Program-made: the position numbers and the translations under genes | Assembly (NCBI GenBank): GCA_011032825.1 | Contig: JAADJZ010000009.1 | Location: 1,550,001-1,614,000, forward strand | DNA from: Massariosphaeria phaeospora | Taxonomy: Eukaryota > Ascomycota > Dothideomycetes > Pleosporales | Direction of reading: 5' to 3' | DNA: 64,000 bases | The notes under the pieces: generated by a model | Databases searched by the model: none | Told to the model about the DNA's origin: nothing | The model's input: the letters and a program-made list of their open reading frames with translations, nothing else | In this document: piece by piece, positions 14,234-22,693 of the stretch | Layout: every line of letters starts with the position of its first letter | Numbering within the stretch: the stretch's first letter is position 1

Positions 14234-15112
14234 ATGGCGAACCCGAAGAAAACGTACTTCCTAACCTCCTCCTTCGACTACCCGCCCCCGCCCTCCGGCC
14301 CGCTCAAACTCGGCAGCATACTCGCCGATCCAGCCTCGCCCGATCGGCCCCTCAACTCCAAGAATGCCTACACGCCGCCTCCGCAAACCGCGCTCACGAC
14401 GACCGTGAAGTCCGACTGGAAGTCGTCCCTCACAAAGTCGAACTCGGCCTCCATCGGCCTGTACGCCAAGTTCCTCGCCCTCGTCCTCGGCGCCGGCGTC
14501 GACGCCAGCGTGAACTGGGCCCACGAGACGGGAAACAAATACGAGTTTGACAAACTCGAGACTACCTTCTTCGACCCAATGGAGGCAGAGGCGTATCTTG
14601 AGGAGGCGCTGAGGGCGCCGAATGTCGCGCGCTTCATCGAGAAGAGCAAGTTGCGGAAGCCGGTGTATGTGATCACAGGGCTGAAGATCGTGCGCGGCGG
14701 GAAGATCAAGTCGAGCAAGGACAGGGCGCGAGGGGGGACACTCAGTGTGGGGCTTGACGGGACGGCACTTGCTGCACCTGTGGAGGTCGGCCCGGAGTTT
14801 GAATTGCAGAAGGGCAAGGGGGAGAGCGTGGAGTGGGGGTCGAGTGATGACTTTGTGTTTGCTTATCGGCTGAGCAGGATCAAAGTTAAGAGGAGGACCG
14901 GCGAAATGAAGGAAGAGGAGTATGTGAAGGGTGCGCTGTATGGTTTGGAGGGTAAGAAAAGTGCTGGGGACGCGGATGCCCCGTCGTTTGAAATCTCGGG
15001 AGTCGAGGGAGATTCCGTGTTTCCGGCGGAATTTGGCGATGTGGCATTTGAAGCCGAGGACGACGAAGATGAAGGGGCATGTGTCGGTATTGCTCTGCAG
15101 AAGGCCGGTTGA
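14234..15112 (+). CDS. Gasdermin-like pore-forming protein (RCD-1/HET-Q1 type), candidate
   Basis: Single exon, 292 residues, no signal peptide. Seen: the opening FLTSSFDYPPPPSGPLKLGS; a beta-rich middle with RKPVYVITGLKIVRGG (about 141-156), LSVGLDGT and VEVGPEF; then SSDDFVFAYRLSRIKVK (203-219); and an acidic tail after about 240. The YVITG...R block and the FVFAYRL block correspond in position and character to conserved beta strands of gasdermin N-terminal domains. The length suits fungal gasdermin-like proteins, which are short and lose only a small C-terminal piece when activated. The next gene encodes a subtilisin-like protease, with the two stop codons 44 bp apart; this is the known genomic partner class. 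Inferred role: after cleavage it makes plasma-membrane pores and kills the cell, as in heterokaryon incompatibility. Alternative: an unrelated fungal beta-rich family. Confidence 0.65.
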   Translation: MANPKKTYFLTSSFDYPPPPSGPLKLGSILADPASPDRPLNSKNAYTPPPQTALTTTVKSDWKSSLTKSNSASIGLYAKFLALVLGAGVDASVNWAHETGNKYEFDKLETTFFDPMEAEAYLEEALRAPNVARFIEKSKLRKPVYVITGLKIVRGGKIKSSKDRARGGTLSVGLDGTALAAPVEVGPEFELQKGKGESVEWGSSDDFVFAYRLSRIKVKRRTGEMKEEEYVKGALYGLEGKKSAGDADAPSFEISGVEGDSVFPAEFGDVAFEAEDDEDEGACVGIALQKAG

Positions 15113-15156
15113 GATGCTCGGAGGTCAACACAACACTGAGGAACAGCGCAATTCAT

Positions 15157-17970
15157 TCATTTCAAGGCTTCTAAGATGATCGTACGAGTCCAGTCCTTTT
15201 TCTTTCGGTTGAATAACTCCCAGGGCCGCAGATACTGATATCCGCCCACTTCAACCGCCATGAGTCGCAACACATCCTTCATTCCCTCGCAAGTCATCAG
15301 CCTTTGCAGCTTCTCGGGCTCGTCTTGCAGGTTTTGCATGCCGTACTCCAGTACAAAAGCGGCGAGCCCCGCGGCCACTGGCGTTGCAAAAGACGTGCCC
15401 GACTTTCGTTTGAACTCGTCATCTCCTGGCCACGCCGAGTATATTGCCTCGCCGACGATGCTGAAGTTGTCGCTCGGTCGAAGCGGAGGTGGATTGAAGC
15501 CTGACGCTTTCCCTCGGCCGTCTGTCGAGTGGATGCAGATGACCCCGTCGTGCTTCGCAGGGTATGCGCGGTCGTAGTTCCCGCCGTGGTTGGCGGCTGC
15601 TGCGAACATGAGGCAGTTGGCCTCACGGATGGCGGATTCTATTATGCCCGCGCGGTCGGGGAAGCCAAACGACATGGTGATGATGTCGACTTTCCATTGG
15701 GTAGCAGCAAAGGTGATGGCCTGCAACGATTATCGTCAGCTGCCGTCCTCTGGAAGCTTGACTGGGATATGGAAGAAGACTCACCTGCGCAACGGCTTCC
15801 ATGTCATCAAGGTTACCGTTATCAGTAATCTTTGCGATGTACACATCCGCTAGTTCCGCGACATCAAGTACAATACCTGCGACATGCGTTCCATGACCGT
15901 GAGAATCACCTCCTTTAGGTATTGCGGTGCCATTTGCTCCGTTGGCCCAGTTTCGAATGTCTTTGATTCTGTCCGCCACTGCAAACATATCTTGGTGTTC
16001 AAGGTCAATGCCTGTATCTAAAATAGCAATTTTCACACTTGATGGACTCTCCTGATGCAAGATCTGCTTGACCGGTTGGAGATTTTTGAACCACGCGTCT
16101 GTTACATCGCCGTTCTCTTGAGAGGAAGAATCGAAGTGATCATCGAAAAGCTTGAAGCTCGTCAACGCTGGTGGAGATCTCGGAACAGAAGAGTCCGACC
16201 GAATTCTGGCTAGAGGTGACCCCGATCGCCAGCGTGTCGGACTGCCGGGCCTTAGTAGTCCCGCTGGCTGCGCCCTGGCTTCATGGAAGCCCTCCTGTCT
16301 ACGAAAATTCGATATGTCTGATACAGCTAGTGGAACGGGAGACTGCGTTTTCGAGCGGTGGCCAACAGTGTTTGGCGCTGTCTCATTTGGGTAAGACATC
16401 CCTCGAAACTCAGACAGATCAATCGTTGGTGCCATGGCGTCGATATTGTCTACCTTGTCCGAAAACGCGATCTCAAGTTGGTCCTCTAAGGGTCTGACAA
16501 TCCTCTCGTAGATTAGGCGACGGAAGTCTTCACTACCTTCCTCGTAGTCTTCGTCATAGCCGAAGTTGGCATCAAGGCAAGCTTCAATAGCCTTACTGTA
16601 GTCTTTGAGCATATTCCTTCGCTCCTTCTGAAAGACCTCGTATGCGACAGTCATCGGATCTCGGCCGTGAGTATTTGTATATCCATCCAGCGGTTGGTGC
16701 AGTTCGAGTTCTAACAGGATGGTTCCTAAAGCTAGGATGCTCGGATATGGATGGCAGCTATCTGTCTCGTCCGCTGGTGCTCCTCGAAGGGGTCCAGTAA
16801 GAAGAAAAGGCTTCATAGGCAACGTATTTCCCTTACGGATGAAAACGATATGCTCTCGACTCCAGTACTGAAGCCACGGAGTATTGTAGAGCTGAAGTAA
16901 ACTGTGGCCAAGAATAACCGCAAGAATGGTCTTGATACGATGGTTTACGGTGAGATATCTCGATAGAAGATTCGTTAGCGGAACAACATCATCAAGATCT
17001 TCCGCCGAATATGTATTTGGACAGCGTCGCTTTTTCTGCCAGATATCGTGACCCTTAACATGCCACTCTAAGCGTCGAAGCCTCGAAGCCGGCTCTTGAA
17101 TTTGCTTACAAAGCGTTTTGACTGCAACAAAGTCCTTCGTAGACATTTTGTTGACGACTTTTGAACTACTGTCATCGCCAAAGTGAACTTTGGATTGCCT
17201 TGGGGCTTTCCTTGTACAAGCTTTAGTTTAGAGAAGAGGGCCAGACGAACGGTGACGTACTGTTGATCTTCCATAGAAAGTACGATTTCTCGCCAGGGAT
17301 GCGCATCTTGATCTAGTGCGAGCAGTAATTCAAGGGTAAGCTCTCCCGCAAGTTTTCGATTTGTTGCTAAAGCCAAACGGACAATGGGGCAGTCGCAAGT
17401 ATCACAGCAACAGCTTTGAGTGAGGGCCTGGATGGCTTTGGTGTTGACGTGCCAATTCCCAAAATTGGGTTCTTCTCGGAAAATGGTTGTAGCCCCGAAG
17501 TCACACGCCTGATCAGTCCCTGTCGTCTCTTCTAGGCTCACAATAGACAATTCAAGTCTTTCCAGAATAGACTCAGTGAGATGGTGATCCTCCACTTGTA
17601 GCTGGGCGGTCGCCAATAGTAGAGGCTCATTGTTCTCTGAGTATGTAGTTCGAAGACGCTTGAGTCGCCCGTACTCTTCATCTCTGTCTTCTTCGTCTCC
17701 TGCTGACACAAACTGGTTCAGGCAGTCGAGTAATTCAAGCACGGAATCGGGAAGTATCGCACTGTGTGTTGCAGTCTTGTAGGCGTGGAGATCAAGGTAT
17801 AAGGTGTGCAGATCCGAATCGAATGCGGGCAAGAAGTATTTTAGCGTCTGTTTATTTCCATCTCGAGTGAATCGAAATTTCTTCTTGTAGGATCTGATAA
17901 GAAGCGGGAACGCTCCGTTCGGCTGAATCAGTGTAAGTAGTAGATCGATGAGCCCCCGGTGGCTCTGCAT
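15157..17970 (-). CDS. Subtilisin-like serine protease with N-terminal DUF7580-like region (HET-Q2-like)
   Basis: Three exons, minus strand: 17970-17218, 17134-15785, 15720-15157 (introns 83 and 64 nt), 888 residues. The C-terminal S8 peptidase domain has the full triad: Asp624 in LDTGID, His665 in HGHGTHVAG and Ser811 in SGTSFATP, with the oxyanion Asn in AAANHGG. Residues about 315-400 read like the fungal DUF7580 region (HRIKTILAVILGHSLLQLY, then TPW and LGTILLELEL). A Ser/Pro-rich linker joins the parts. There is no signal peptide or obvious inhibitor prodomain, so it is probably a cytosolic, regulated protease. It converges with the gasdermin-like gene; by analogy with het-Q2 it could cleave that protein. 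The first intron is tentative: the acceptor was chosen because it restores the frame. An upstream coding exon before 17970 cannot be excluded. Confidence 0.78.
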
Positions 17971-18540
17971 CTTCGGTGCAGGAATAACACTCCTCCGCGG
18001 CTACCAAGAAGGCACCTGTCGTGAACGTTTTACGGTTTCCGGCACACCGAGAAGATTGTCTCTTTGGAGAAGTGAGGACGAAATCGATGAAATACAGCCT
18101 GATGTGCGATACAGCAGCCTTGGAGGTGGCAAGGTCACCTGATGTACCCCGCGCTGACAGATATCCAGATTTTGACGCTAACCTGACTCAGTGATATTAC
18201 GAGGAAGGACTAGTGTGAGCCCCGCGCTTCCTTTTTCCTCCCCAAACTGACAGCATAGCGGTTGGCCATCTACACACTCTTGTTCCCACCCCTAAACGTT
18301 GTCGAGTTCTACTATGCTAATCGTCTTCTGCTCCCGGCCGAATACCTTGCACTCTCCCCGCCCAGCGGTCGCCTCTTACGTCTAAGCCCGCCAGCCTTAT
18401 TCTCACCCACAATCGTGTGCTTATCATTTATCTCCTCCTACAGACATCCACTATCTATTCCAGTCTCGTCCATCTGGTATATCGACAGACACGCTCCCCA
18501 TCCGTTCCAACCGGGAACATCCCCGAATGTAAACCCTGAG
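17971..18540. other. Divergent promoter region of protease and zinc-finger/GTPase genes
   Basis: 570 bp between two divergent starts. The frame of the plus-strand gene stays open upstream to 18262, but that extension is Pro/Leu/Tyr-rich and does not look coding. I see no clear regulatory motif. Confidence 0.45.
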
Positions 18541-21500
18541 ATGACCGCAGTACCATTCTCCGTGGCTACGGTCATTCGCAGCGAAGCACAAGACTGCCGC
18601 GATGGTTTCAAGAAAGTTTTCTCCCGACTAGAGACTCTTGAAGTAAACAAGAAATATATTGATATCTATACCGACCCAAAGATTGCCGGAGCGTCAGGCA
18701 TCCCGCTATCCACTCTTCTCCAAAATGAATATGGCCGCTTCAATGTTTGGGCTGCGAATACAGGTGTCTTTGCGAAATCCCGAATCTCTCTGGATTATCG
18801 ACTTCGCGACGTATTTGACGTGCGTGAAATACTGGTCGACTTGCTTCGTTCCCTGACGGAGGGCTTCGAACAGCTCAGGCTCGATTCAAAAGAACTCGGT
18901 CAGCTGCTTGAAGAAAATATGGAACACAAGAAAGATTCCGCCGAACTCTTTGAAAGTATTCGGAAGAGTCTCCATTTGACCACTGCCACAATAAGTCGGC
19001 TGAACAGACTCTCCAACGCTATTTTCAAGGCAGGGAGCTCTAATAGAGATGCACGAGCATCTAACTACGTGTGGAAGGATAACGAAGGTAATGATCTAGG
19101 CTCGAACTGGAGGGATAATTTCGCTTTCCAACTCTGTGAGCGTAGATTTCCAAAGTCCTCAGTTTCCATCAAGGATAGAGTGGCCAATGCAATGCTTCAA
19201 CGCCGGAAGCGGTTATTGTACCGGCAGGAACGTAGAGAGAAACTCGCTTTGAGAACGGATCCCGGGCCAACACAAAAGCTAAACGAAAAATTCAATACTC
19301 AAACAGAAGTTCATACTCAAGAAGACATTGGGGGAAACCATGAACGCGTGGAGCTAGACCGGCTCTCTGCAGGACAAGATGCTGCCATATTCCCTTCCAC
19401 ATCGAGAACTACAATCACATCCAACACGGCAGCAACTCCACTTGATCATGGGAAGATGCAGTCATTGTTAGCTCATTCTCGAGTGTCCTCCATGAGAAGC
19501 ATGCCATTGGACCAACAGACGAAATCAAGGTTTCCAGCTCCACCACGACTTGCCACTCAAAATGGTGGGCCCGCAGAAGCCGTTTGCCCGTACTGTGGTC
19601 TGGTACTATTTGCTCGAGACGTTAACAGCATTTCAAGATGGCAGTAAGTACGAACTAGACATAAATTCGGAAGATTTGTAGCTTATAGCTCAAGGCGCCA
19701 TGTCCTCCATGATCTGGATCCTTATGTATGCTTGGTGGAGTCCTGCACAGACGGGGATCATCTGTACGGAAGCCTTGCTGAATGGTTCAACCACACGCGG
19801 GAGGAGCATCGGCTCCGATGGACTTGTAATAGTCGCTCCCACCCGAGGTCCAGTCGTCCGAACTTCGAGAATAGAGAGCATTTCGTAAACCATATGCGAG
19901 AAGAACATCAGAGAACGTTCGTTGAGTCCGATCTCGACTTACTCGCGAAAAGTATTGCACGACCAGCCGGCCCGGCGTTCGATATCTGCCCATTATGCAA
20001 ATCGGATGGTACAGACGACGTTGACATCGGTACTGGTCGCTCCCCCAGTGCTTTAGATCAACATATCGGTAGGCATATGATACTATTGGCACTCCAGTCG
20101 ATCCCCTGGGCGGAGGATGATAGCGGTGGTGAGTCCTCGGAGCGTTCAACATCCAAACCGGAGACTAGGTCTACTATTCATGAAGAATTTCAAGGACAAT
20201 TCGACGGCTTCGAGCCCTTCCCTGATTCATCTCAACAGCCACCCTTGGATGAGTCTTCCGACTATGTGGCAACAGGTCCAAGTCTAGCGACTAAACGGGA
20301 TGAAGAATGGGGGAGGGTGTTAATTGAATCTTGTTTACCGCAAGACAGAGAGGATCCAATCCTCGCAAGTCTGCTGAAGCAGCAGCACGATCCAGCTCAT
20401 GTCATGCGAAGACTCCCCACTGAGCTGAAGTAAGATGCCTAGTAACCCCAGACGAATTGTTTACTCGCTAAAGCTAATCGCATATATCAGAGCCGAAGAC
20501 ATTGTTATTTTAGTAACAGGACTGACTGGTAGCGGCAAAACGTCCTTTATCAATCTACTTGCGGATCGCCAATCAGGAGTAGGGACTGGGCTTCACTCCA
20601 GTAAGCATACCTAAGCTGGCTACCGCAACTTAGTAGCACTATCGAACAGATTGCTCATAAATAATTAGATTCCAGTATTATCCAGGTAGTGTCTTGCACA
20701 CTCGATGATAATGATAAGAATAAAGTATATCTAGTGGATATGCAAGCTCTCGACGACGAGGGACCATCCGACGTAGAAGTCCTTCGTGAAGTAGCCTCAT
20801 GGTTAAAGAACTCGAACTTGAAGTTGACAGGGATGTTGTATCTACATCCTATCTCGGCGCCACGACTCCACGGAAAGACAACAAATAATTTGAGGATTTT
20901 CAGGAAGATATATGGCGACAATGCACTCTCTAATGTGATTATTGTAACCACAATGTGGGACATAATCCAGGACGTCGAAGTTGGAGATGCACGCGAGACT
21001 GAACTCATTAGTCGCGACGAGTTCTTTAGGCCTTGGATTGCGAGTGGTAGCCAAGTATCTCGACACAATAACACGAAAGTGTCGGCGTCAGACATTGTAC
21101 ACAATCTACTCGGAAAGCAGCAAACGACCCTAGAAATACAATATGAGATGCTGCACTTGGGTAAGCAACTAAAGGAAACAAAAGCCGGGCTAGAGCTTGC
21201 GGACGTGTGGGAGAGGAATAGACAGAACTACCTAAGGGAATTACTCCGATATGAATCGGAGCTTGAGGTTGCAAGGGCGAAACAGGAGCATGAACTTATA
21301 ACAGATTTAGAAGTTGCATTCATAACGATTGAGAAAAAGATTCAGAGGCTTGACAGTAAGGTGGAGTTACTAGAGGTCGATGCTTATCAACTTCACAAAG
21401 AGAGGGACGATAAAGAGAGTACAGAACAGCGTCGCATAGGACAATCGGATACGGCCGTCGATACGCCGACAGAGAAAGTTGACGAAATAGCAGCAGGCAT

Positions 21501-22693
21501 GCACCACTCGAACGAAGATGGAGTGAAAGAGAAGTTAAAAGCGGAACCATCTGCGAATGTTGCCGAATCACACCGAGAGAGACCAACTGAAAACCCAGTA
21601 ACCAAACAAGATCCCATCCGCGAGATCGGAAGGGACGACCAAATGATTCTTGTCGCAGGAGACACGGCAAACTCAAGGTGGGAGTTTATCAAACTCGCGA
21701 AAAGAGATGGTGAAGAATTGCATACATACAGTTTACCTCCGTATAGTATATCTCCCGCTGTCCCCTATCGTTCTGAACTAATAAGGAAATGTAGAGGAAG
21801 GTAGAGTCACCGTACATTCTATGAGATATGAGAACAGGGTTGTTCATCTAGTGGAGATGCCTTCTGATGACAAATTCGGTATAATGAGTCTCGAACATGT
21901 TCAAGAAAGTGCACTCTGGCTCACATTCCTATACGAACGTGGCATGTATCCCACCGGTGTCATACTGTTACAAAACATAGAGGTCACGCCACTAGACTCA
22001 CCATCGCATAATCTGGAAGCCTACAAGAAGATGTGCGGCAACAATGCCTACAAGGGTGTCGTAATTGCCACGACGGGATGGGAATCGCTCACCCCAGTTC
22101 AGATCGAAATGGCGGGACAGAAGCAACGGAAAATTCAAAACGATGGGTCTGACTTGATTGGAGAAGGTGGTTTGGTGATGGCTATCGGTGGCTTGGTGAT
22201 GGGCAATTCGGCTCCTGCTACGGACGCATTGGCTATCCTCAGACGTCTCGTGACTAAAAACTATCGCTTGACGCTTGCGTTCCAGCGACAACTCGTGGAT
22301 GAAAATAAGTGCATATACGAAACCGATTTCGGAGCATTTTGCTTCGAACCTTCTATGAGCTGGGCACAGCGGTCTTCCGACGGCTGGAATTCGGATTTGA
22401 TCCAAACAGAATTGCAAGGACATCAGTTGATAGTAACCGATCTCCGGCGCGAGTATCGGGCGGTTCTGGCGGAAAGATTACGAGTGATCAACAAGCAGAT
22501 ACGCAGTGTCAACGATGAGGTCGCCTCCCTTTCTAGTACATCTAAAGATCGGGCGCGACCAGGGCCAGAGGGATATACGAACACGCGGAAAGATCTAGAA
22601 CGTGAAAAAGATAGAATTAGAGCTACGATGACACAGTTCCAAGAGCCAGCTTGGCGGGAGCTAGCTACGAAAGATTGCTTGGGGCTGGTCTAG
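18541..22693 (+). CDS. C2H2 zinc-finger protein with two GTPase-like P-loop modules
   Basis: Five exons: 18541-19643, 19695-20429, 20491-20600, 20669-21745, 21795-22693; 1307 residues. Each junction restores the frame: WQ-RHVLHDL, LK-AEDIVIL, HS-NSSIIQV, PPY-KEGRVTV. Residues 1-230 match the helical N-terminal region common in fungal C2H2 signalling proteins. Residues about 355-520 hold C2H2-like pairs (CPYCGLVLF, CLVESC, CPLCKSDG with HIGRHM). Residues 614-970 form a GTPase-like module with an intact P-loop GLTGSGKT (623-630), but its G3 motif is LVDMQALDD instead of DTPG. Residues about 972-1307 form a second copy whose P-loop has decayed (GDTANSRW) and whose G3 reads LVEMPSDD. Coiled coils follow each module. 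This suggests a STAND/GIMAP-like signalling protein, one module being a pseudo-GTPase. It is divergent from the protease gene. Confidence 0.8.

Follow-up and report, generated by a model that had tools for sequence, protein, structure and literature searches.

A Gasdermin Gene Convergent with a Q2L-Type S8 Protease Gene in the Fungus Massariosphaeria phaeospora

We analyzed a 64,000-nucleotide stretch of the genome of the pleosporalean ascomycete Massariosphaeria phaeospora (assembly GCA_011032825.1, contig JAADJZ010000009.1, positions 1,550,001 to 1,614,000; hereafter the window), in which a gasdermin gene and an S8 protease gene end next to each other. The pair adds a new member to the class of gasdermin/protease systems known from fungi. 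Very probably, it forms a cis-linked death module of a tail-inhibited gasdermin and a regulated S8 protease that cuts it. In addition, the larger recurring gene module around the pair may be new. An original prediction had proposed a further gasdermin/protease pair of the kind known from heterokaryon incompatibility, possibly with new allele specificity. The fungal gasdermin beside an S8 protease stood, given its RCD-1/HET-Q1 homology, fold, and profile, and a role in incompatibility did not find support. The features of the pair are as follows.

14234..15112, + strand: fungal gasdermin gene, 292 amino acids (aa), single exon (homology search, AlphaFold2 (AF2) fold, and 83 relatives)
14921..14941, + strand: linker motif Y-V-K-G-A-L-Y, residues 230-236, candidate cleavage region (gasdermin alignment)
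14942..15109, + strand: acidic C-terminal tail, residues 237-292, candidate inhibitory tail (low predicted local distance difference test score, pLDDT, and net charge)
15113..15156, no strand: 44-bp gap separating the convergent stop codons (gene coordinates)
15157..17970, − strand: S8 protease gene (Q2L type), 899 aa; exons 17970-17261, 17210-15785, and 15720-15157
15391..16018, − strand: subtilase catalytic triad, D635 (16016-16018), H676 (15893-15895), and S822 (15391-15393); the second intron lies inside
16472..17439, − strand: DUF7580 (PF24476) domain, residues 178-483, weakly kinase-like (Pfam E 1.2e-37); the first intron lies inside

The Gasdermin

The frame at 14234-15112 on the forward strand is open throughout, without interruption. 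It holds the 292-residue protein originally predicted, together with both of the gasdermin-like strand motifs that had been cited for it. Its homology to RCD-1/HET-Q1 (phmmer against PDB, E 6.2e-12; profile, E 3e-25) is beyond chance, because these values are joined by 83 related proteins, the weakest at E 4.8e-14 (the public copy of the window gene is among them). Furthermore, the profile reached a bacterial gasdermin (E 5.5e-6). The Pfam scan of the protein gave nothing significant, and the NCBIfam scan gave prok_gasdermin at E 1.6e-4, far below the family cut-off. The AF2 model, compared using Foldseek and VIA, has the gasdermin pore-domain fold, the predicted pore-forming domain covers about residues 5-232, and RCD-1 is the closest structural match. 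The original prediction was to fall on a fold foreign to gasdermins or on profile matches to an unrelated family; both fold and profile proved to be those of gasdermins.

The public model of this gene (BDV95DRAFT_398418, P0001) has 271 aa and is without 21 residues near the N-terminus, which were apparently spliced out as a false intron. These residues (YFL..PP.GP..LG) are conserved among the gasdermin homologs. Thus, the uninterrupted 292-aa open reading frame (ORF), as first predicted, is the better model.

After the pore domain, the family shares a linker of the form Y-x-K-G-A-[LM]-[YFL]. Among the aligned rows with a letter at these positions, G233 is kept in 63/64, A234 in 62/64, and L, Y, or F at position 236 in 57/64. 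In the window gasdermin, the linker leads into an acidic tail of 56 residues, and pLDDT is below 50 at residues 234-292. The homologs bear out the acidic tail noted earlier, since 64 of 65 aligned rows have a negative net charge beyond residue 234, the model of the remaining row being without the tail. In addition, at the place corresponding to 15056-15100, many homologs carry, toward the C-terminus, an acidic run and then C-x-C or C-x-V, often with P. HET-Q1 is cleaved after F238 and thereby loses 40 residues (PMC10989679). The linker position roughly corresponds to this site, and we therefore infer that the window gasdermin is cleaved at the linker.

The Protease

The protease gene model contains two introns (50 and 64 bp), and the modeled 899-aa protein has 100% identity over 100% to the public BDV95DRAFT_606360. 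The 44-bp spacing between the ends of the two genes and the intact S8 triad, both part of the original prediction, were recovered. Among 46 aligned DUF7580-S8 proteins, D635 and S822 are each present in 46/46 and H676 in 45/46. In the fold search (Foldseek and VIA), only subtilases were among the 50 matches listed, in agreement with an S8 fold; a kinase fold was unreadable from this search.

Meanwhile, helices are predicted at residues 2-149 of the N-terminal region. For the DUF7580 domain, a profile of ten paralogs had the necroptosis pseudokinase MLKL as its best PDB match (E 2.4e-5). This match depends on one divergent paralog (L044) and weakens without it: with the nine others, plant kinases came first (E 0.05, the best value) and MLKL reached at best E 0.18. 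The ten PDB matches of this nine-paralog profile were seven named kinases, one "Hypothetical protein," and two PHF20. In addition, a profile of five fusion segments and four paralogs gave six PDB matches, all of them receptor kinases (best E 0.13).

Linkage of the Two Genes

The window belongs to contig C51 of the 42-Mb genome, in which gasdermin loci were sought using the window gasdermin as query. Three loci were found (C51, the window; C29; and C50), and more distant ones may be missed. An S8 match lay 186 bp (C51), 627 bp (C29), and 459 bp (C50) away, and all three loci have an S8 gene within 10 kb. With 22 S8 genes in 42 Mb (27 matches merged by hand), a uniform estimate of the chance that three of three gasdermins fall within 1 kb of an S8 gene is about 1e-9. 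C50 (L047:3546-7449) is a second convergent gasdermin/DUF7580-S8 pair, and its gasdermin shares 31% identity over 221 columns with that of the window. At C29 (L046:3584-7178), the gasdermin stands in tandem with an S8 ORF, and an adjoining ORF has TPR-like matches below the Pfam cut-offs. In other genomes, gasdermin and protease matches were found, by eye, on equal-sized contigs in three cases (4,128; 663,550; 745,081). A relative carries both genes at 61-65% identity on equal-sized contigs. Chance neighborhood or decay of the two genes is extremely unlikely, given this relative, the estimate of about 1e-9, the open frames, and the kept catalytic residues.

Another explanation is that the protease cuts a different substrate and that the gasdermin is activated without cleavage, as RCD-1 is. 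RCD-1, the closest structural match, is described as not controlled by cleavage (PMC12881547), and the Podospora precedent for control by an S8 protease concerns a different pair. However, the linkage is tight at the three loci found, and the conserved linker motif and the acidic tail follow the pore domain across homologs. We consider this explanation rather unlikely.

Proposed Mechanism

For the cis-linked module, the analysis shows the families to which the proteins belong, the predicted fold, the catalytic residues, the linkage between the two genes, and the recurrence of such pairs in the genome. The short acidic tail may hold the gasdermin inactive. The 899-aa protein would be a regulated subtilase, in which the N-terminal helical region and the kinase-like DUF7580 domain hold the enzyme or sense a signal and the C-terminal S8 domain does the cutting. 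Judging purely by linkage, the trigger possibly arrives through the zinc-finger/NTPase protein of a divergent neighboring gene (see below). The S8 domain would then cut the gasdermin close to its conserved linker, KGA[LM][YFL] (residues 232-236), and the freed pore domain, by analogy to RCD-1 and HET-Q1, would oligomerize in the plasma membrane and lead to cell death.

Several points weigh against this mechanism. The gasdermin model has a mean pLDDT of 63.6, with residues 71-100 and 161-200 at 41-53, and at such values parts of the sheet and the autoinhibition by the tail are seen unreliably. The cleavage region is one that we infer, and F238 of HET-Q1 falls outside the aligned part of the solved chain in the profile alignment. 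In addition, five named species are common to the gasdermin and DUF7580-S8 match lists, and a comparison by eye placed the two genes on different-sized contigs in two of them (Emericellopsis atlantica and Biscogniauxia mediterranea). By eye, the locus tags of the Neopestalotiopsis gasdermin and DUF7580-S8 protein also differ by 19 numbers.

Comparison with Known Systems

The HET-Q1/HET-Q2 system of Podospora anserina likewise consists of a gasdermin and an S8 subtilase, and HET-Q1 (278 aa against 292 aa here) has a short C-terminal tail. However, het-Q1 and het-Q2 are described as idiomorphs, two different genes that occupy the same locus (PMC12881547), whereas the window genes stand in cis, and HET-Q2 has 388 aa (PMC10989679), whereas the window protease has 899 aa with a DUF7580 domain. 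These differences bear on whether the locus is of the het-Q kind, with strains that differ and with fusion bringing together a constitutively active protease and an intact gasdermin. The homology to HET-Q1 and the S8 partner are in line with this, as is the view that incompatibility systems, het-Q among them, stem from Q2L-type pathways (PMC10197012, PMC12881547). Nevertheless, both genes lie side by side and intact in one assembly, and the protease is full length with a presumed regulatory part. We regard a het-Q-like incompatibility locus as quite unlikely; new allele specificity or allorecognition at the window locus is not supported.

Because both genes are in one genome and the 899-aa protein has a large nonprotease part, the window protease fits the Q2L class, that is, multidomain proteases in cis with their own gasdermin. 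Q2L clusters share the adjacent gasdermin and multidomain S8 protease (PMC10197012, PMC12881547, PMC10989679). The window differs in its head-to-head zinc-finger/NTPase gene and in a DUF7580/zinc-finger arrangement repeated through the genome, which our literature searches did not find. RCD-1 of Neurospora crassa differs in that it is reported to act through two allelic variants without cleavage (PMC12881547). In bacterial systems the gasdermin also adjoins its own protease (PMC12881547), whereas the window protease gene is spliced and eukaryotic and the window genes are convergent. HELL-kinase proteins that resemble MLKL, fusions of proteases with kinase-like domains, and clusters of two or three genes are already described (PMC12881547).

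The Divergent Zinc-Finger Gene

Beyond the protease gene lies a gene that the original prediction did not mention.

17971..18540, no strand: intergenic region of 570 bp that separates the protease gene from the divergent zinc-finger gene
18541..22693, + strand: C2H2 zinc-finger gene, its product of about 1,300 aa having a P-loop NTPase/GTPase-like part
18541-19643, 19695-20429, 20491-20600, 20669-about 21745, and about 21795-22693, + strand: exons of the zinc-finger gene, the last junction being guessed

The 570-bp region is a possible candidate for a shared promoter of the two genes. The P-loop part gave weak AIG1, AAA, and nSTAND3 (STAND) matches, below the cut-off. When the zinc-finger part was searched in the genome, 11 of the 12 matches (E <= 2.9e-4) lay 2.0-4.4 kb from a DUF7580 gene in divergent orientation. 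The twelfth (C49:776674, E 0.007), with a DUF7580 gene 255 kb away, appears to be a different C2H2 protein and was set aside post hoc. Under a uniform model, the chance that 10 or more of the 11 nonquery matches lie within 5 kb of DUF7580 is about 4e-24; this estimate takes the copies as independent, and joint duplication of pairs would mean fewer events. The N-terminal exon, used as a query, gave nine matches at E <= 1, eight of them in the same zinc-finger/DUF7580 pairs and the ninth (C34:222050, E 0.17) outside any pair.

Elsewhere, 7,988 candidates sharing most words were scored, and nine homologs were found, the window protein's own copy not among them. Eight of the nine carry PF26082, a C2H2 zinc finger, and some have NACHT-like, ankyrin, kinase, or macro accessions; PF24883 is present in P0193 and P0195. 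In the Massariosphaeria genome, the zinc-finger partner of the C20 DUF7580 gene is followed by a macro domain in a downstream frame (L055:2819-3430, Pfam E 4.4e-15). The family looks sensor-like and variable. By eye, none of the nine outside homologs is on a contig matching in size that of a gasdermin or DUF7580-S8 match, and thus the linkage is established within the Massariosphaeria genome only. Among the matches listed in literature searches, judged by title and start of abstract, no paper described a zinc-finger/DUF7580 module or pairing.

The DUF7580 Paralogs

DUF7580 has 15 matches in the genome (14 over the Pfam cut-off), and the two with an S8 domain (C51 and C50) both have a gasdermin. 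Among the 13 others, ten have a same-strand upstream start like MSGLEVAGVVLGAxPLxIxALExY (eight found by pattern, C15 and C12 by eye); it was not found for the other three in the DNA examined. From its position, this start appears to form one spliced gene with DUF7580, and in C5 both are in a single open frame. The start pattern is absent from the S8 fusions (0/46). The best 19-residue hydrophobic mean is 1.76-2.35 in seven paralogs and below 1.76 in 45/46 fusions. An N-terminal profile of six paralogs matched neither MLKL nor HET-S in PDB, and no match to a four-helix bundle such as that of MLKL was found by sequence; a HeLo-like label was therefore not given, the best PDB match being a designed claudin (E 0.002). 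Pfam gave no family above its own cut-off on the N-terminal ORFs of the paralogs.

The simplest story would be a single sensor/transducer module whose outputs are a membrane-targeting N-terminus or a protease with a gasdermin. Tentatively, and with considerable doubt, fungi may have a recurring two-gene defense module, in which a zinc-finger sensor, varying in its NTPase, macro, or other parts, stands head-to-head with a kinase-like DUF7580 transducer and the executioner is swappable. In most copies, the N-terminus would be hydrophobic and presumably target the membrane (MLKL-like, necroptosis-style). A few, the window among them, would have lost or changed it and gained an S8 protease and a gasdermin (pyroptosis-style). 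However, the start of the window protease is itself fairly hydrophobic (best 19-residue mean 1.57, at residue 7), and its GAFPLLI stretch resembles GAxPLLI of the paralogs; hhalign of the N-termini was not significant (probability 0.1-1.4%). The N-terminus may therefore have been either changed or lost, and this makes the swapped output slightly less probable.

Implications

The activating stimuli of fungal death-pathway sensors are a major open question (PMC12881547), and the genomic setting makes this pair a variant worth follow-up. If the DUF7580 proteins each work with their head-to-head zinc-finger gene, there would be a named upstream candidate for the window gasdermin and for 10 further pairs in this genome. 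Furthermore, if membrane-targeting pseudokinase copies gave rise to the S8/gasdermin ones, a single signaling scaffold would have both necroptosis-like and pyroptosis-like death as its outputs in fungi.
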